Source: a virus
DNA length: 64,000 nt
Direction: 5' to 3' (one strand)
IMG/VR virus record: IMGVR_UViG_3300008259_002809
Location: 1-64,000 of that record
A program made the translations under genes and the position numbers. This document shows positions 6,817 to 62,070 of the stretch, piece after piece. Position 1 is the first letter of the stretch, and the number at the start of each line of letters is the position of its first letter. The notes beneath the pieces are model-generated. The model was not told the DNA's origin, did no database searches, and saw nothing but the letters and a program-made list of their open reading frames with translations.

Positions 6817-8032
6817 TACGAAAAATTTAAGTTGCAATTTTTGTGGTAAATCTAGAAGCGCAGTTCGCAGTCTTATTGCAGGGGAAACATCTTACATTTG
6901 TAATGAATGCATTGAACTCTGCGTCAAAGTATTAAACGAAGACACTCAAGAACCAGTCACGCATTTTGCTGAAGGTTCAACCCCAACAGAAATCAAACAA
7001 TATCTTGACCGTTATGTGATTGGTCAAGACTTGGCCAAACGAGCACTCAGCGTGGCTGTGCGTAATCACTACAAGAGATTGAATCAACAAGACAAAGGCC
7101 TCATCAAGAAAAGCAACATCTTGCTGATTGGGCCCACGGGTTCTGGTAAAACGCTGTTGGCCAAAAAACTGGCTGAACGACTGCATGTGCCATTTGCCAT
7201 GGCTGATGCCACCACACTGACCGAAGCAGGCTATGTTGGTGATGATGTAGAGAATGTTGTTCATAGGCTGGTGCAGGCCGCCGACGGTGATGTCAAACGT
7301 GCTGAAACCGGCATCATCTACATTGATGAAATTGACAAGAAAAGTCGCAAAAGCGAAAGCGCCAGTATTACCAGAGATGTTTCAGGTGAAGGTGTTCAGC
7401 AGGCCCTGCTGAAACTGATCGAAGGCACACAATGTCGTGTGCCTGTGTCAGGCGGTCGTAAACATCCAGGATCTGATGCCAACATTGTTGACACTAAAAA
7501 TATCTTGTTTATTCTTGGTGGTGCGTTTGTTGGCTTGGATGAGCAGGTCAAGCGACGTGTCACTGGCGGCACACGCATTGGATTTGGAGCACAGGTAGTA
7601 TCTACACTAGAGTCCAATGACCATTGGTTGAATTATGTTGAGCCCGACGACTTTGTTAAGTTTGGTATGATACCTGAGTTTATGGGTCGTGTTCCAGTGA
7701 TTGCCGCACTAGATCCGTTGACAGCAGAATCTTTGATAAAAATCCTTAGAGACCCTGAAGACAGCCTAGAGCGAGAGTTTATAACAATTTTTGCCATGGA
7801 TGGAGTAGAGTTGGAGTTTACAGAAGAAGCACGTCATTGGATAGCCAACGAAGCAATTAAGAAAAACACTGGCGCCCGTGGCCTACGCAACATCATTGAA
7901 GGACTACTACAGGATCTACAATTCAATCTGCCAGAACTAGCCGCAGAAGGCCTAACCAAAGTCATTGTCACACCCACAGTTGACGATAAACTAGTGTTAT
8001 TATTTAGAAACACCAGCACAGTTAATAAATAG
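6806..8032 (+). CDS. clpX: ClpX-type AAA+ unfoldase
   Basis: 408 aa, near the usual ClpX length. Start TTG 6806 is chosen because GGAGG (6795-6799) sits 6 nt upstream and the protein then begins just before the zinc finger. C4 zinc-binding domain: C10, C13, C32, C35. Walker A GPTGSGKT (109-116), pore loop GYVG (142-145), Walker B IIYIDEID (170-177), and the ClpP-docking IGF tripeptide (258-260, RIGFGA). All parts needed to unfold substrates and feed ClpP are present. No clpP is seen here, so host ClpP is the likely partner. A late-promoter-like octamer overlaps its 3' end and serves bS21. Confidence 0.95.
8024..8031 (+). promoter_or_regulatory. Late-promoter-like octamer, near-leaderless bS21
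   Basis: AATAAATA followed by 6 nt and the ATG of the bS21 gene at 8038. No Shine-Dalgarno sequence lies between, so a late transcript would start at or within a base of the start codon. Confidence 0.6.
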
Positions 8033-44719: not shown

Positions 44720-45229
44720 ATGTTAGAATTAGTTCAAGAAAATCATCCAATACTAAAATCACCCATGCCAACGGTAGAAGACCCTACGGCACTCAGAACT
44801 TTGGTTCATGACATGTTTTTAATCATGTGGAGCAATGCCGGCATTGGCTTGGCGGCACCACAGGTGGGCATTGTTCAAAGAATGTTTATCATGGGCAGTC
44901 AGGAAGGACCGCATTATGTGTGTATAAATCCTGAAGTTGCTGGGCTTGGCCCAGAAGTTCGCGCCAAAGAAGGTTGTTTATCCTTCCCTGGACTGTGGTT
45001 AAATATCAGCAGGCCCGAGTGGGTGCAGGCTCGTTATCAAACACTAGACGGCACCTGGGTTGAACAAAGGTTTGAAGGGCTGTTGGCAAGATGCTATCTA
45101 CATGAACTAGATCATTTGGAAGGCAGTTTATTTGTCGAGCGCACGTCGGACCTGGGTTTAAAAATGGCTCGCGAGCGCCAACAAAAGCAGATGCGTAAGA
45201 TTCAAAAAAAGGTGAAACAACAAGCATGA
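44720..45229 (+). CDS. def: Peptide deformylase
   Basis: 169 aa. All three motifs: GLAAPQ (43-48), EGCLS (84-88) and HELDH (128-132) forming the metal site. It removes the formyl group from nascent proteins. Phage deformylases are known in marine phages, where they usually have a truncated C-terminus; this one keeps a basic C-terminal helix (RERQQKQMRKIQKKVK) suited to ribosome binding. Stop overlaps clpA (ATGA). Confidence 0.94.
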   Translation: MLELVQENHPILKSPMPTVEDPTALRTLVHDMFLIMWSNAGIGLAAPQVGIVQRMFIMGSQEGPHYVCINPEVAGLGPEVRAKEGCLSFPGLWLNISRPEWVQARYQTLDGTWVEQRFEGLLARCYLHELDHLEGSLFVERTSDLGLKMARERQQKQMRKIQKKVKQQA

Positions 45230-47442
45230 GTGAACAAGACAATAACTCTAGAATCAATGAAGTAGTGGCCCGTGCATTTCAAGAGGCTCTAAACAGAGAA
45301 CATGAATATGTCACGCTAGAACACATACTTCGTGTGATGCTGGATGAAGATGATATCGCTGATATCTTAAGTGACCTACAAGTTGATGTTCGTTCGCTCA
45401 AAGAAGAAATTGATGTTTGGTTGCGCGAGCAAGAAGAAATTCGTGTTGAGGGCATTGCCAAGCCACGTAAAACTGCAACCCTAGAACGCTGTTTCAATCG
45501 TGCTTACACACAGGCAATCTTTACTGGTCGCGGGCACATGGAGCCATTGGATCTGCTGATTTCAATCACCAGTGAGAAAAATGCCTATGCCAACTTCTTC
45601 CTGGCAAAAAACGGAGTCAGCAAGGACACACTGATTGCTTATGTGACCAAAATCAAAGATGGTCGCAGTAAAGAAAGCAAGACTGCTAAAAAGCGCGACA
45701 GCGAAAAGGTATTGAACAAGTATACCACCAATCTTATCAAGAGTGCAGAAAAGCGCCTCATTGATCCTTTGATTGGTCGCGAGAAAGAAGTGTTCCGTCT
45801 CGCACAAACACTGACCCGTAAGAAGAAAAACAATGCCATCATGGTTGGTGAACCTGGTGTAGGTAAGACTGCCATTGTTGAAGGCTTGGCAGTGGCCATC
45901 AGCAAGAATGAAGTGCCAGATGTGTTGAAAAATAAAACTGTTTACAGTTTGGATATGGGCAAGTTACTGGCCGGCACACGTTACCGCGGTGACTTTGAAG
46001 AACGTATGCAACATGTTCTTGAAGCACTGGAAGAACGTGATGATGCCATCTTGTTCATTGACGAAATCCATATGATCATGGGCGCAGGTGCTGGCGGTCA
46101 AGGTAGCATGGACGTGGCAAACTTGCTGAAGCCCAGTCTGGAAAAAGGTAAACTGCGCTGTATTGGTAGCACAACTTACGAAGAGTTCCGTGAGAACTTT
46201 GAAAAGGATCGTGCCCTGCTTCGTCGCTTTACCAAGATTGACATCAACGAACCCACTGTTGAAGAAACTCGCAGTATGCTACGTCAAGTGATGCCGGTCT
46301 ACAGTAAGTTTCATAATATTGCGGTGCCCGAAGAAACCATTGACTTGGCCATTGACTTGTCTATGAAGTATATGCTAGACAAGAAATTGCCTGACAAAGC
46401 CATTGATATCTTGGACTCTGCAATGGCTCACATGCGTGTGATTGCTACCACAGGCGAAAACCTTGCACTCAGCAAGGAAAATATTCGCAGAGAAATTTCT
46501 GACCTAACTCGTATTCCCATTGAACAGTTGGGCGAGCAAAAAGATGTGGCTGTCACTGAACTTGAAAGCCGCATGCGAACCAACGTGTTTGGTCAAGAAG
46601 ATGCCATTGAGCGACTAATGAACATGGTTTATATTGCCAAGTCAGGTCTTAAGGAAATCAATAGACCCATGGCCAACTTCCTGTTTGTTGGCCCCACTGG
46701 CACTGGTAAAACTGAACTTGCTAACCAACTCGCTGACGGTTTGGGCATGGAAGTTGTTCGCTTTGATATGAGTGAATATCGTGAACCACACAAAATTGCC
46801 AGTCTGATTGGTAGTCCTCCTGGCTATGTGGGCTATGGTGAGGGCAAAGCAGGTTCAGGTAAACTGATCAATGAATTAGAGCGTGTGCCTAACTGTGTGC
46901 TACTATTTGACGAAGTTGAAAAAGCACATCCTGATGTTATTCAAGTGTTGTTGGGACTAATGGACAATGGTATTGTCACCGGCAGTGACAACAAGCAGGC
47001 CAGTGCTCGTAATGCTTTTGTGATCATGACTTCGAACCTTGGTGCTGTAGATGCTGAAAAACAAATGATTGGTTTTGGTGGCGGATTCAATGAAAGTGCC
47101 AGCGATGATGCTGTTAAACGTTTCTTTGCTCCTGAGTTCCGTAACAGGCTTGATGCAGTGATCAAGTTTAACAGACTGGATCGTAGTGTGGTCAAGCGCA
47201 TTGCTGAAAAGTTCATGCGTCATATCCGCGAGCAATTGGCTGAACAAAACCAAAACATTGTCTACACAGACTCTGTGCTGGAATACATTGCAGAAAATGG
47301 ATTCAGTGATACCATGGGTGCTAGACCTATGAAACGTCTCATCAATGAAGAAATTCGTTTAGGCATTGCCAAGCGTATTATTCGTGATGGTAAAACCAGT
47401 CACACCGTAGATGTCGTCAATGACAAATTGGTAATTGCATGA
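45226..47442 (+). CDS. clpA: ClpA-type double-ring AAA+ unfoldase
   Basis: 738 aa, about the length of E. coli ClpA. N-domain (1-140, where ClpS binds), first ATPase with GEPGVGKT (about 207) and RYRG pore loop, second with GPTGTGKT (about 489), GYVG pore loop and VLLFDEVEK. The ClpP-docking loop MIGFGGG (about 615) is kept. The last strand VDVVNDKL ends the D2 small domain. With ClpS (8953) it makes a complete N-degron unfoldase except for ClpP, which must be the host's. Coupled to def by ATGA. Confidence 0.95.
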   Translation: MSEQDNNSRINEVVARAFQEALNREHEYVTLEHILRVMLDEDDIADILSDLQVDVRSLKEEIDVWLREQEEIRVEGIAKPRKTATLERCFNRAYTQAIFTGRGHMEPLDLLISITSEKNAYANFFLAKNGVSKDTLIAYVTKIKDGRSKESKTAKKRDSEKVLNKYTTNLIKSAEKRLIDPLIGREKEVFRLAQTLTRKKKNNAIMVGEPGVGKTAIVEGLAVAISKNEVPDVLKNKTVYSLDMGKLLAGTRYRGDFEERMQHVLEALEERDDAILFIDEIHMIMGAGAGGQGSMDVANLLKPSLEKGKLRCIGSTTYEEFRENFEKDRALLRRFTKIDINEPTVEETRSMLRQVMPVYSKFHNIAVPEETIDLAIDLSMKYMLDKKLPDKAIDILDSAMAHMRVIATTGENLALSKENIRREISDLTRIPIEQLGEQKDVAVTELESRMRTNVFGQEDAIERLMNMVYIAKSGLKEINRPMANFLFVGPTGTGKTELANQLADGLGMEVVRFDMSEYREPHKIASLIGSPPGYVGYGEGKAGSGKLINELERVPNCVLLFDEVEKAHPDVIQVLLGLMDNGIVTGSDNKQASARNAFVIMTSNLGAVDAEKQMIGFGGGFNESASDDAVKRFFAPEFRNRLDAVIKFNRLDRSVVKRIAEKFMRHIREQLAEQNQNIVYTDSVLEYIAENGFSDTMGARPMKRLINEEIRLGIAKRIIRDGKTSHTVDVVNDKLVIA

Positions 47443-48071
47443 AAAAGAAGATTTCACAGCGCCTTTACTGGAAGCAATGGCCCTACAAGATAATCCTGGG
47501 CAAGGAAGGTGACGAGCGTAAAATGCCGTGGAAGCATCGCTTTATCAAAGCCACTGATGACGAAACCTATGCATGGCATTCGCAGTTTAGACGATGGTTT
47601 AAAAAGAATTTTCCTGAAGCAGGGCTTCGTCAAGAAGGCCGTATCAGTGTTTTCTTGAAAACACAAGAACAAGTGGACATATTGGTGGATGCCTGGAACA
47701 ATTATATTCTAGAAATTTGGTCACCTGAGTCCGAGCAGGCTTTGACTTTGATGGAAAATCATGTTTATGATGTGATACGTCCTGAACCCTGGTATAAAAA
47801 GTATCCCATTCGTGCTCGCATACTCTACAATCAAGAGTTTAAAATGCGCGGGCTAGAGCAGATGCGTGATGCTGTCAAACAGATAGACTCTGAAAATTGG
47901 CATGCTGGCGGACTATTAAAAACCCTGTTATCTGACAAGATTCAAAGCAAAGTTCCTTACCCCTGTGGCCAACCTTTTTATCTTTATTTGCTAGACAACG
48001 AAGACGCCATAATGCTAAAACTACAGGTAGGTGACTGGGTTGATAGATTTGAGCGACAACGAAAACCCTGA
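47439..48071 (+). CDS. Hypothetical protein downstream of clpA
   Basis: 210 aa, basic N-terminus (KKKISQRLYWKQWPYKI), Trp- and Tyr-rich, ATGA overlap with clpA. Not recognised. A terminator hairpin follows. Confidence 0.62.
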   Translation: MKKKISQRLYWKQWPYKIILGKEGDERKMPWKHRFIKATDDETYAWHSQFRRWFKKNFPEAGLRQEGRISVFLKTQEQVDILVDAWNNYILEIWSPESEQALTLMENHVYDVIRPEPWYKKYPIRARILYNQEFKMRGLEQMRDAVKQIDSENWHAGGLLKTLLSDKIQSKVPYPCGQPFYLYLLDNEDAIMLKLQVGDWVDRFERQRKP

Positions 48072-48094
48072 CTTAACACTGGTCCAATAAACCC

Positions 48095-48125
48095 AACCTC
48101 CGCTAAATAGTCGCGGAGGTTTTTT
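48095..48125 (+). terminator. Terminator hairpin with a late promoter in its loop
   Basis: AACCTCCGC (48095-48103) pairs with GCGGAGGTT (48113-48121), then a T-run. The loop holds the late octamer and the 3' arm holds GGAGG, the ribosome site of the next gene. Confidence 0.88.
48102..48109 (+). promoter_or_regulatory. Late-promoter-like octamer inside terminator loop
   Basis: GCTAAATA, 5 nt, then GGAGG at 48115-48119, 7 nt, ATG 48127. A late transcript would start with GGAGG and lack the 5' arm of the hairpin, so the ribosome site would be free. This is probably the main promoter of the tail-fibre operon. Confidence 0.65.
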
Positions 48126-48126
48126 A

Positions 48127-48294
48127 ATGGCTAAAATTGTCGAAGATATCGTCATCATCAAGTTCAGCAAAATTGTCAAGGACAATGAAAACGCTGGTGC
48201 AGGCATTGCTAACGCCGAAGTAATTGCGGCTTTGGAACAGGTTGCACAAGAACTGGTTGGCGAATCAATTGTTGTTGAAACTATCAAGGAATAA
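48127..48294 (+). CDS. 55-aa conserved phage protein
   Basis: AKIVEDIVIIKFSKIVKDNE, then ALEQVAQELVGESIVVETI. GGAGG lies 7 nt upstream of ATG 48127. First gene of the structural operon; similar short proteins open tail-fibre regions in T4-like phages, but the function is unknown. Confidence 0.72.
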   Translation: MAKIVEDIVIIKFSKIVKDNENAGAGIANAEVIAALEQVAQELVGESIVVETIKE

Positions 48295-48297
48295 ACC

Positions 48298-48669
48298 ATG
48301 AGCATGAGAAATACCAACATGCTGGTTGGCAACGGTAGTCTAGATCAAACTGGCTCAGCCACTCGTGCTGACGGCTATTATGGTTTTGCTGACGGCATGC
48401 AAACTGTGGCATTTTATGTAAAAAACTTTCGCGGACGAGTTTTTATTGAGGCTTCTGTGAGCGATAATCCCACAGAGGCTGACTGGTTTCCCATTGGCCT
48501 ATCTAACCTAAGTTATTATGACTTTGACGATAGCGTTGGAGCAACTCGTGTTGAAACATTCAACGTAGTGGGAAACTTTGTTTATTTGCGGGCACGAATT
48601 CAAAGAAGCCATTTAGGCTTGCCCGTGACAGATTTAGGAAACTGTGAACGAGTAGTTCTAAGTTTATAA
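48298..48669 (+). CDS. Small structural-type protein
   Basis: 123 aa, beta-rich (GMQTVAFYVKNFRGRVFIEA), no Cys. First larger gene of the fibre operon, so probably a virion or baseplate accessory. AGGAG after it serves the fibre gene. Confidence 0.62.
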   Translation: MSMRNTNMLVGNGSLDQTGSATRADGYYGFADGMQTVAFYVKNFRGRVFIEASVSDNPTEADWFPIGLSNLSYYDFDDSVGATRVETFNVVGNFVYLRARIQRSHLGLPVTDLGNCERVVLSL

Positions 48670-48685
48670 CAGGAGAAATAATAAC

Positions 48686-51600
48686 ATGGCGATTAACGCA
48701 TCTTCAGGAGGACAACTACAGGGTGGCACAGGAAGTGGCGGCGGCCTTACTGAAGAAGATGTTCATGACATTGTTGATGATCAACTTGAAGTAGGCAACG
48801 ATATCAACATTGGCCTTCAAGCCACCTATGATGATTCCACAGGCAAACTTGTTCTAAGTTTGGCTGGTGCTACCAATAGTGGTGGTTCGGGCTCAGGCGT
48901 AATCGTTAAAGAAAATGACACAGCACGTGGTTCAGCAACCACCCTGAATTTCGTTGGACCCAACGTAAGTGTCAGCGATAACGTGGCCACCATCACTGGC
49001 GGTCTTGATTCTATCTCAGTATATGAAAATACCAGCAATCGTGGAAACTTTACCAGCATTAACTTTGTCAGTGGAGCAACTGTAACAGTTGACAACGGCA
49101 CAGCCAATGTAACCATTGCTGGCGGCAGTAGCCCATATACACTACCAACAGCATCAACCAGCGTGTTGGGTGGCGTCAAAGTAGACGGCACAACTATTTT
49201 AATTGATGGCAACGGAGTTATTTCCGCAGTTGGTGGCGGCTCTGGTGGCGGTATCAGTCTTGGTGATGTTGGCACATATTTGACCAACAACGGCTATGCC
49301 ACACAAACTTATGTAAATGGTCAAGTAACAAACTTGATCAATGGTGCTCCTGCCATCCTTGACACTCTCAACGAACTACAAGCCGCCTTGGGTGGTGATG
49401 CCAACTTTGCATCAACGATCACTACAGCATTGACCGGCAAGTTGAATATTTCTGGCGGCACAATGACTGGCACATTGACATTGGCTGGTAACCCTGCTAA
49501 TGCACTGGAAGCCGCTACCAAATCCTATGTGGACACTAAAGTTGCCCAGGGTTTAAGTTCGCTTCCAACCCCAAGTTCATATTTGGATGATCTAGTAGAC
49601 GTCAGCACCGCTGGCGTAGCAACAGGACAAGTATTGGGATGGGATGGTGGTGCTTGGGTGCCAACTAATAATACAGGTGCCACTGGTCCACAAGGCCCCG
49701 CAGGTGCTACAGGCCCTGCTGGTGCAAATGGTTCCAGCATCACATCAGCCACAGTCAGCGTCACTGGTAGATTGTTGGTGACACTCAGCAATGGCACAGT
49801 AGTTGATGCAGGCAATGTGTCTGGCATCAGTTCAGCCACTGTTGACGGCAGTGGTCAATTGGTATTGACCAAGCAAGACGGTTCAACCGTAAATGCAGGC
49901 AACGTTATTGGTCCCAAAGGTGATACCGGTAACACAGGCCCTCAGGGTCCACAAGGTAGCACAGGTTCTACCGGAGTTGGTGTTGCTGGAGCCGTAGTGA
50001 ATGGCAGTGGTCAACTGGTGATTACTCTCACTGATGGTAGCACAGTCAATGCAGGCAGTTCAGTGGGTCCACAGGGTCCACAAGGTGTTGCAGGTCCTAC
50101 CGGTCCTACAGGTCCACAGGGTGTAAGCGTGGTCACTGCTGTCATTGACGGCGCAGGCAATTTAATTCTCACACTTGACGATGGCACTAGCATCCAAGCA
50201 GGCAGTTCAGTGGGTCCAATGGGTCCACAGGGTGTGCAAGGTCCAGCAGGTCGTAGCATTGCTGACAGCGGTGTCACTGTTGACGGCGACGGCAATTTAC
50301 AAGTCACTTTAAGTGATGGTGTTGTAATCAACGCTGGCTATGTTGTTGGCCCACAGGGTTCGACAGGCGCACAAGGTATTAAAGGTGACAAGGGCGACCA
50401 AGGTATTCAAGGTATACAAGGACCTCAAGGCGATAGTTATACTGTCAATGGTTCCACTGGAAGCGTTCAAATTTATGGGTTGAGTTCAACAACACAATCT
50501 GGTTACGATTTTGAAGTTGATCTATCAAACAAGGCCAACAGACTTACCACTGCTAGAACAATCAGCCTGGCAGGTAAAGTCACTGGTCTAACCAGTTTTG
50601 ATGGCACTGGCAACGTCAGCATTACCACAGCACTCAGCGGTGTCACAACATCAGATGTCAATGAAGGCACTAACCAATACTTTACACAGGCTCGTGCAAG
50701 ATCTGCACTGAGTTCTACTGCTGATTCCAGCATTTCAAGTTTGATCAGTTATGATGATTCAACTGGTGTTATCAAATATCGTGCCAGCACCAGTTATATC
50801 ACAGAAGGCAGTAACTTATATTTCACCAACAGTCGTGCAGATGCTCGTGCAGATGCAAGAATTGGTGCTGCCAGCATCAATGCTTTGGCAGACGTTGACA
50901 CATTAACATCAGCACCTACTAATGGTCAAGTCTTGACTTGGACTGGTAGTGCTTGGACACCAGCGGCCGCAGGCAGTGGTTCTGGTGCAGTTTCAAGTGT
51001 CAACACCAAAACCGGTGCAGTGGTTCTCAGCACTGATGATGTCACAGAAGGCACAAGCAATCTTTATTACACAAACACAAGATTTGATACACGCCTAGCA
51101 ACAAAGACCACAGACAATTTAAATGAAGGCACAACCAACAAGTATTTCAGCAACACATTGGCAAGAAATGCGTTGGTTGCCGGCACAGGTATTTCATACA
51201 ACAGTTCAACAGGAACAATCACACTCAGTGCCAACACAGATCAAGTCACAGAAGGCAGTTCAAACTTGTTCTATACCAACACAAGATTTGATACACGCCT
51301 AGGACAAAGTAATCTAAGCCAACTAGCCAATGTTACCAACACTACTCCTACAACTGGGCAAGCATTGGCTTGGAACGGTAGTGCTTGGGCACCTACTACA
51401 ATCAGTGGCGGTGGCGGTGGCGGATCTTCATCTTCAGGTGTATTCCGTGCCAGTGCTCAAGTTGAATACGATGCGTCCGGTAACCTATCAAGTGTAAGTG
51501 TGTTGAGTGGTGGTATTGCCGCTGTGATTGCCACAGCAACATCAACAACTGCTACAGTGACATTTACATTTACTGGTAGCACATGCCCTCCACTCAGCAC

Positions 51601-51838
51601 TATGGTTTATGGTTATCAACGAGCCAGCAACGTGTTTGTTTCACGTGCCTTGGCCAGTGACTTTACCACAAGAACAATTGCAGGTGGTGGAACCAGCGGT
51701 AGCCCAACAGCATTTTCAAGTTTTGATTCTGCAACAAATACAATGACACTGAGTTTGACCAAAGCCTTAACAGGTGCTAGTGCCGCAGTAGGACAGACAA
51801 CACACGCAGTGGTTCAATTCTTACTCAGCAGTGATTAA
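48686..51838 (+). CDS. Collagen-like tail fibre protein
   Basis: 1050 aa. An N-terminal Gly/Ser-rich region is followed by blocks of Gly-X-Y collagen repeats from about residue 331 (GATGPQGPAGATGPAG), with further blocks near 410, 461, 511 and 555. Each block alternates with a repeat of about 31 residues of the form DGSGQLVLTKQDGSTVNAG. The C-terminal half has T4-like fibre motifs (EGTTNKYFSN, TNTRFDTRL repeated). Likely a trimeric receptor-binding or whisker fibre. Confidence 0.85.
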   Translation: MAINASSGGQLQGGTGSGGGLTEEDVHDIVDDQLEVGNDINIGLQATYDDSTGKLVLSLAGATNSGGSGSGVIVKENDTARGSATTLNFVGPNVSVSDNVATITGGLDSISVYENTSNRGNFTSINFVSGATVTVDNGTANVTIAGGSSPYTLPTASTSVLGGVKVDGTTILIDGNGVISAVGGGSGGGISLGDVGTYLTNNGYATQTYVNGQVTNLINGAPAILDTLNELQAALGGDANFASTITTALTGKLNISGGTMTGTLTLAGNPANALEAATKSYVDTKVAQGLSSLPTPSSYLDDLVDVSTAGVATGQVLGWDGGAWVPTNNTGATGPQGPAGATGPAGANGSSITSATVSVTGRLLVTLSNGTVVDAGNVSGISSATVDGSGQLVLTKQDGSTVNAGNVIGPKGDTGNTGPQGPQGSTGSTGVGVAGAVVNGSGQLVITLTDGSTVNAGSSVGPQGPQGVAGPTGPTGPQGVSVVTAVIDGAGNLILTLDDGTSIQAGSSVGPMGPQGVQGPAGRSIADSGVTVDGDGNLQVTLSDGVVINAGYVVGPQGSTGAQGIKGDKGDQGIQGIQGPQGDSYTVNGSTGSVQIYGLSSTTQSGYDFEVDLSNKANRLTTARTISLAGKVTGLTSFDGTGNVSITTALSGVTTSDVNEGTNQYFTQARARSALSSTADSSISSLISYDDSTGVIKYRASTSYITEGSNLYFTNSRADARADARIGAASINALADVDTLTSAPTNGQVLTWTGSAWTPAAAGSGSGAVSSVNTKTGAVVLSTDDVTEGTSNLYYTNTRFDTRLATKTTDNLNEGTTNKYFSNTLARNALVAGTGISYNSSTGTITLSANTDQVTEGSSNLFYTNTRFDTRLGQSNLSQLANVTNTTPTTGQALAWNGSAWAPTTISGGGGGGSSSSGVFRASAQVEYDASGNLSSVSVLSGGIAAVIATATSTTATVTFTFTGSTCPPLSTMVYGYQRASNVFVSRALASDFTTRTIAGGGTSGSPTAFSSFDSATNTMTLSLTKALTGASAAVGQTTHAVVQFLLSSD

Positions 51839-61407: not shown

Positions 61408-61413
61408 ACTATC

Positions 61414-61439
61414 ATAGGGCTAGAACTAAATAGCCCTAT
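61414..61439 (+). promoter_or_regulatory. Hairpin with late octamer in the loop and start codon in the stem
   Basis: ATAGGGCTA (61414-61422) pairs perfectly with TAGCCCTAT (61431-61439). The octamer ACTAAATA (61425-61432) spans loop and stem; 5 nt later is the ATG at 61438. Read-through RNA would hide the start codon; late RNA would begin at it. Confidence 0.65.
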
Positions 61440-62070
61440 GAAAATCACAGATTTAAGCCAACCTGGTATTGGCGATATTGTTGAATTTGAAACCGATCCC
61501 GAAACTGTAGTTGAGGGTTTAATTGTCGGCGAAACCGATGATGGATATATCTATGAATTCTCAGAATCTGGTTACCAGGAACTCGAAGAAACCTGCACTC
61601 ATGGCAAGTATTACTGCTCCACAGACCGCAAGTGGAAATGTAGACAAGATCCAAAACAGACACGTGAAGTTGCAGAAGCCAGTGGCTATGTTGCTAAGAC
61701 CCCCGCAGAAGCCCGAGACCCCCGATATTCAGCAAGCCTAAGCGCAGATGTAGGCTTGCACACAATGAGAAATCAGATTGCTGATTTCTTTCCCACTGCG
61801 GCACCCAAAGATAGACAAACACAAATCACAGAGGCTACCTATCAAGGCCGTGAAGTTCCTTTGGGCAGACCATTACGAGGGGATGTAAAAAAATTCCGAG
61901 TGTATGTGAAGAACAAAGCAGGCAAAGTAGTCAAAGTCAACTTTGGTGATCCCAACATGCGTATCAGAAAATCAAATCCTGCACGTCGCAAGAGTTTTCG
62001 TGCTAGACATAACTGTGCCAATCCTGGTCCCAGATGGAAGGCGCGATATTGGAGTTGTAGAAAATGGTAA
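61438..62070 (+). CDS. Conserved T4-like phage protein with Cys-rich C-terminus
   Basis: 210 aa. N-terminal beta domain (GDIVEFETDPETVVEGLIVG), two Cys near 53-66, Pro-rich middle, then the conserved basic end RKSFRARHNCANPGPRWKAR and YWSCRKW. This end is seen in T4-like phage virion-linked proteins. Leaderless by promoter geometry. Confidence 0.65.
   Translation: MKITDLSQPGIGDIVEFETDPETVVEGLIVGETDDGYIYEFSESGYQELEETCTHGKYYCSTDRKWKCRQDPKQTREVAEASGYVAKTPAEARDPRYSASLSADVGLHTMRNQIADFFPTAAPKDRQTQITEATYQGREVPLGRPLRGDVKKFRVYVKNKAGKVVKVNFGDPNMRIRKSNPARRKSFRARHNCANPGPRWKARYWSCRKW

Follow-up and report, generated by a model that had tools for sequence, protein, structure and literature searches.

At the start of a block of virion genes stands a 35-base palindrome that appears to combine four jobs, namely stopping the RNA that comes from upstream, hiding a Shine-Dalgarno sequence (SD), launching a late RNA and supplying the ribosome site of that RNA. 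The element was studied in a window of 64 kb out of a 73,257-base IMG/VR virus record, and we consider it probable that it acts as a 'start-here-only' late switch for the virion operon. To judge from sequence, the same device with varied letters appears to recur in related phages and in marine cyanophages. The class of mechanism is already known from the hidden-SD late switch of T4 (e, soc and I-TevI), a precedent that the original prediction does not mention, and what is new is its fusion with a predicted intrinsic terminator. The anatomy of the element and the comparison with its relatives, both read at the sequence level, are well supported, and the interpretation given in the original prediction is partly supported.

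Architecture of the element and its surroundings

The element lies between an upstream gene group, which also includes DnaJ and peptide deformylase, and the virion block. The neighbouring genes are the following.

45226 to 47442, + strand: P0005, Clp ATPase of the ClpA/ClpB type
47439 to 48071, + strand: P0003, upstream ORF of 210 aa, with its stop 23 nt before the hairpin
48127 to 48294, + strand: P0001, ORF of 55 aa, family unknown, first gene of the virion block, with 211 relatives in IMG/VR
48298 to 48669, + strand: P0002, ORF of 123 aa, related to the virion-protein families phrog_13657 and phrog_14467
48686 to 51838, + strand: P0004, collagen-repeat protein of 1050 aa, probable fibre

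No match was found in a near-DNA search of the window against cultured phages, in a tblastn search of P0001 against cultured phages, or in a search of IMG/VR with P0003. Positions 48090-48129 read, in order, AACCC AACCTCCGC TAAATAGTC GCGGAGGTT TTTTA ATG, from which the following parts were delimited.

48095 to 48103, + strand: 5' arm AACCTCCGC, the anti-SD arm, from sequence and folding, with pairing kept in ten relatives
48102 to 48109, + strand: late-promoter-like octamer GCTAAATA, across 5' arm and loop, matching the Aeh1 CTAAATA and invariant in the aligned relatives
48104 to 48112, + strand: hairpin loop TAAATAGTC, 9 nt, from sequence and folding
48113 to 48121, + strand: 3' arm GCGGAGGTT, holding the SD, from sequence and folding
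48115 to 48119, + strand: SD GGAGG, with the predicted late start at 48115, a placement shifted by at most 1 nt among the aligned relatives
48120 to 48125, + strand: T6 tract, candidate terminator U-tract and SD-ATG spacer, from sequence and a terminator score of +13.4

All nine pairs between the arms are perfect, and the first two T of the T6 tract are themselves paired in the hairpin. The 3' arm does carry the GGAGG proposed for the ATG at 48127, at a spacing of 7. The octamer, which had been placed in the loop, in fact straddles the boundary: TAAATA opens the loop, and the GC of the octamer forms the final two bases of the 5' arm. According to the published rule for Aeh1 and T4, by which transcription starts 6 nt past the octamer's last A, late RNA is predicted to begin with the first G of GGAGG at 48115, in line with the start of about 48115 originally suggested. 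This predicted RNA would lack the 5' arm, which ends at 48103.

Folding and terminator character

The hairpin RNA folds with -15.1 kcal/mol (z -5.1), a value that none of 200 shuffles equalled, and the 7-bp G+C part of the stem has -11.9 kcal/mol with T6 directly after it. At the sequence level, the element thus has the stable G+C-rich hairpin and immediately following U-tract of an intrinsic terminator, and its score of +13.4 by the d'Aubenton-Carafa formula, as coded for this analysis, falls within the terminator range, so that the terminator claimed from the hairpin and T-run is borne out as a predicted structure. It differs from an ordinary intrinsic terminator in that it also houses a predicted late promoter together with a ribosome site, and in that the next gene begins right after the U-tract. 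A simple terminator scanner missed the hairpin, as its loop of 9 exceeds the scanner limit of 8. Rfam returned only a sub-threshold match to OmrA-B, dismissed as chance, with 19.8 bits where the gathering score is 40.

In a predicted read-through RNA spanning -70 to +30, the unpaired probability of the SD is 0.00, in agreement with the proposal that such RNA hides GGAGG, and in the predicted late RNA it is 0.28, i.e. the SD is partly open. Our own scan found the 48095 hairpin to be the sole + strand hairpin with T6 between 42.2 and 61.4 kb. Between 41.7 and 61.4 kb, there is no + strand TAAATA upstream of a gene start besides that of the 48095 element, which is thus the single predicted late promoter of the virion block of about 12-13 kb; the one other + strand TAAATA, at 45000, lies within a gene. 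A TAAATA within a perfect hairpin of at least 9 bp is expected at 0.0005 per site, and two of the 24 sites in the window have one (11 and 9 bp), the remaining sites having perfect hairpins of at most 5 bp. Under a permissive rule, 12% of the trials with random upstream sequence produced stems of 7 bp or more, compared with 70 of 116 observed sites, which are mutually non-independent.

Conservation in close relatives

Close relatives were selected by a protein search with P0002, ignoring the hairpin, which yielded ten contigs. Their identities to the window are 60-72% for P0002, 37-44% for P0003, 81-84% for the Clp ATPase (nine relatives with long matches) and 45-53% for P0001 (eight with a tblastn match). 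The hairpin, GCTAAATA, GGAGG and the spacing are kept in all ten, and the letters of the element vary (e.g. AAGCCTCCACGCTAAATAGTGTTGGAGGCTTTTTCTATGG and AAGCCTCCGCTAAATATAGTTGGAGGCTTTTTTATGG); the nested geometry that had been proposed is thus conserved in relatives chosen without reference to it. An earlier table of pairs over pattern-selected elements was discarded as circular, since stems had been required there, and the protein-selected relatives were used instead.

The alignment comprises nine sequences, i.e. the window and eight relatives, as L315 and L317 repeat L314 and L316 in this region. Across it, GCTAAATA is invariant and its last A lies 5-6 nt from GGAGG, which puts the predicted start on either the first or the second G there; SD and ATG are 7-8 nt apart. 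One pair outside CCTCC/GGAGG shows a compensatory change, with A-T in the window against G-C in the other sequences, and the inner pairs differ too; a formal covariation test on these few sequences was weak, with 54 of 500 shuffles reaching the observed value. In two relatives (L313 and L318) the T-run is absent and the hairpin, promoter and SD are retained, which suggests that SD hiding together with the promoter is the conserved core and termination the less conserved function. Judged by its sequence conservation in these relatives, the element is not a product of chance.

Wider relatives of P0001

From the 211 IMG/VR relatives found with P0001, 80 were kept, and a Clp ATPase match lies upstream in 71 of them. 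All examined leaders (55 distinct) have TAAATA at most 45 nt from the ATG except at five loci (L023, L026, L027, L028 and L037), which lack both TAAATA and the Clp match. The wider relatives would replace the nested element with other devices of the same predicted outcome, and three designs can be distinguished. In design A, found in most of them, the pattern is GATAAATACTCTA..TGGAGTATTTATGG, the promoter itself serves as the SD-burying 5' arm, and the hairpin has no T-run. Design B (L005, L010, L011, L049, L050 and L062) has a separate terminator-like hairpin followed by GCTAAATA or ACTAAATA with the SD exposed; long stretches of the fibre protein are shared by just these six loci, whose Clp match is also the better one (52-55%). 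Design C (L051, L071, L072, L075 and L081) has CTAAATAATACACTATG and is predicted to be leaderless. Over 50 leaders, the mean unpaired probability of the SD is 0.12 in read-through RNA versus 0.59 in RNA from the predicted start.

The TATTT of the design-A 3' arm is retained even at loci with a different spacing to the ATG. Covariation in design A was not significant (96.9% paired versus 96.8% in shuffles), and it is therefore conservation that supports these hairpins. The exact design-A pattern occurs in 35 IMG/VR contigs, with a P0001 homologue directly downstream in all but two.

Cyanophage elements

The pattern of the nested form was found in 37 IMG/VR contigs, mostly as CCTCC..CTAAATA..GGAGGTTTTT..ATG, before several different proteins, and a scan without the 5'-arm requirement gave at least 120 sites, with a stem of at least 6 bp including GGAGG in 55 of the 80 listed. 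The cultured Synechococcus phages S-CAM1, S-RSM4 and Syn1 carry the element directly, and near-identical matches occur in S-RIM44, S-CAM4, ACG-2014e/i/j and others. These nested cyanophage elements score as terminators by the same formula. In S-CAM1, S-RSM4 and Syn1 the element lies between the gp41/mazG run and unannotated genes, plausibly an early-to-late boundary, and in several IMG/VR contigs the ends of the upstream ORFs resemble, in our reading, MazG or thioredoxin. A 65-aa upstream protein was rejected as an anchor for the cyanophage junction, as it lies elsewhere in many genomes.

A stricter pattern found exactly one element in five of the 12 records searched and none in Syn9, S-PM2 and P-SSM2; after its mazG cluster, Syn9 has TAAATA and no such hairpin. 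Several elements per genome had been expected, and the pattern search gave at most one per record. Additionally, the cyanophage-type element changes little between contigs (L113-L149 and L197-L309) while the genes right after it vary greatly, a picture that would suit a site of gene swapping beside a constant regulatory cassette.

Other TAAATA sites

At the 80 homologous loci, the gap from TAAATA to the ATG has its peaks at 4-7 nt and at 20-26 nt, which are absent for most of the other A/T hexamers; the partial exceptions overlap TAAATA. The gaps are bimodal in this lineage (last-A positions 8031, 19186, 22547, 41683 and 61432 in the window, and loci L002-L081), with gaps of 4-7 nt lacking an SD (63 of 195 distinct N-termini) and gaps of 20-26 nt mostly having one. 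The shorter peak predicts, from sequence, leaderless late mRNAs, and was not seen in T4, Syn9, S-PM2 or S-CAM1.

Positions 61412-61441 of the window hold a second hairpin-embedded TAAATA, TCATAGGGCTA(gaactaaa)TAGCCCTATGA, in which the ATG at 61438 is within the 3' arm and the predicted start falls on that ATG. At the homologous gene, a nested terminator, AAAGCCCTCTGC(TAAATAAT)GCAGAGGGCTTTTTTATG, occurs in L323, a related locus of the contig that also carries L314. Hairpins of varied sequence also precede another gene of the P0001 lineage, with ORFs of about 300 aa downstream (L022, L040, L042, L051, L070, L071 and L079); they enclose TAAATA or a close variant, and their 3' arm, immediately ahead of the ATG, contains GGAG or GAGG. 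Further, TAAATA in the loop of a strong hairpin lies upstream of the portal gene gp20 in Syn9 (113916) and of its look-alike in S-CAM1 (155175), and S-PM2 has TAAATA in such a loop at 66799, before a 276-aa ORF; these hairpins are below the terminator range where scored.

Comparison with known systems

Burial of the SD in read-through RNA by a hairpin with an internal late promoter is known from T4 e, soc, 49, I-TevI and segB and from Aeh1 mobE (PMC3014915, PMC2988022), and read-through RNA of T4 gene e is repressed about 100-fold (PMC3014915). In Aeh1, the late promoter is CTAAATA, which starts at -12 (PMC1524935), and cyanophage late promoters have been described as NATAAATA (PMC2984593). 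In our hairpin census, T4 e, soc, segB and I-TevII, identified by their N-termini, were recovered as a positive control.

T4 gene e and the window share the late promoter inside the hairpin, a late RNA without the 5' arm (predicted for the window), a loop with TAAATA and a 3' arm that holds the SD. The octamer's last A lies 5 nt from GGAGG in T4 and 6 nt in the window. In contrast, the T4 e and soc hairpins lack a U-tract and are not terminators (scores -63 and -77, versus +13.4 for the window), and in the window the U-tract doubles as SD-ATG spacer and the element heads a block of virion genes. In sequence terms, the window thus resembles the switch of gene e, with a hairpin that would have taken on the role of terminator in addition. 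T4-type mobile cassettes, as reportedly described by Arbiol et al. in 2010, are said to consist of an early promoter and a separate stem-loop. Like these, the window element is a compact unit of promoter and stem-loop between genes, of a kind that recurs before different genes, but its promoter is late-type and lies inside the stem-loop. Searches of the open literature found no description of a late promoter, terminator and SD nested together, which is weak evidence of absence.

A gp55-like sigma was found in all five searched P0001 relatives of more than 200 kb, which are distant relatives, and no gp55 homologue was found on the 73-kb contig of the window or on the partial contigs of the close relatives.

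Proposed switch and alternative explanations

If the element works as a start-here-only switch, RNA from the clpA side would fold the 9-bp hairpin while emerging, most polymerases would stop at the T6 tract, and RNA passing T6 would have GGAGG locked in the stem, leaving the virion operon untranslated from read-through RNA. A T4-type late polymerase with a gp55-like sigma would recognise GCTAAATA within the same hairpin and start at about 48115; without the 5' arm, the late RNA would form no hairpin and meet no termination, and would present its SD 7 nt before the ATG. For this phage, we infer actual termination, the RNA ends, late timing and the use of a gp55-type sigma.

The arrangement could also be punctuation only, i.e. 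a terminator of the clp transcript overlapped with the late promoter of the next gene to save space, with SD burial as a non-regulatory by-product. This would fit the terminator score of the window hairpin, the separate terminator-like hairpin and exposed SD of design B, and ACG-2014f, in which the stem is CCACC/GGTGG and hairpin and T-run are kept with no SD. However, the two close relatives that drop the T-run yet keep hairpin, promoter and SD, as well as the burial of the SD in a hairpin without a T-run in most wider relatives, argue against it, and we regard it as unlikely. A gate coupled to translation, where ribosomes on the upstream ORF open the hairpin, so that translation of the upstream gene always lets the next one be made from upstream RNA, would fit Syn1 and S-RSM4, in which the upstream stop codon overlaps the octamer and a translating ribosome may thus open the hairpin; many contigs, too, have 4-7 nt between upstream stop and arm. 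In the window, however, the 23 nt between upstream stop and 5' arm are beyond the usual reach of a ribosome, which makes this reading highly improbable here. Hardly credible is a constitutive arrangement without a late promoter, with TAAATA as a chance A/T word in an ordinary terminator loop and P0001 expressed from another promoter or by read-through: TAAATA is indeed a short word and gp55 is missing from the window's contig as searched, but 20 of the 24 TAAATA in the window lie directly upstream of possible starts, versus about 55% for permuted hexamers (pooled), and both the gap peaks at the homologous loci and the invariant GCTAAATA speak against chance.

Implications

Beyond the window, we see about an even chance that a portable element of T4-related phages, a palindrome of 35-45 bp acting as terminator, as lock on the SD, and as promoter and ribosome site of late RNA, is widespread, and that late genes are made translatable only from RNA of their own promoter by interchangeable devices, i.e. 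the nested terminator, the hairpin with the promoter as antisense arm and the leaderless start. The proposal is directly testable, given that one gene shows parallel solutions and that the element recurs in cultured Synechococcus phages. As a compact one-way gate, the element could also serve as a regulatory part. If the proposal is true, a terminator, a promoter and a ribosome site would be packed into one element, and phages with co-directional early and late genes would silence their virion genes without a repressor.
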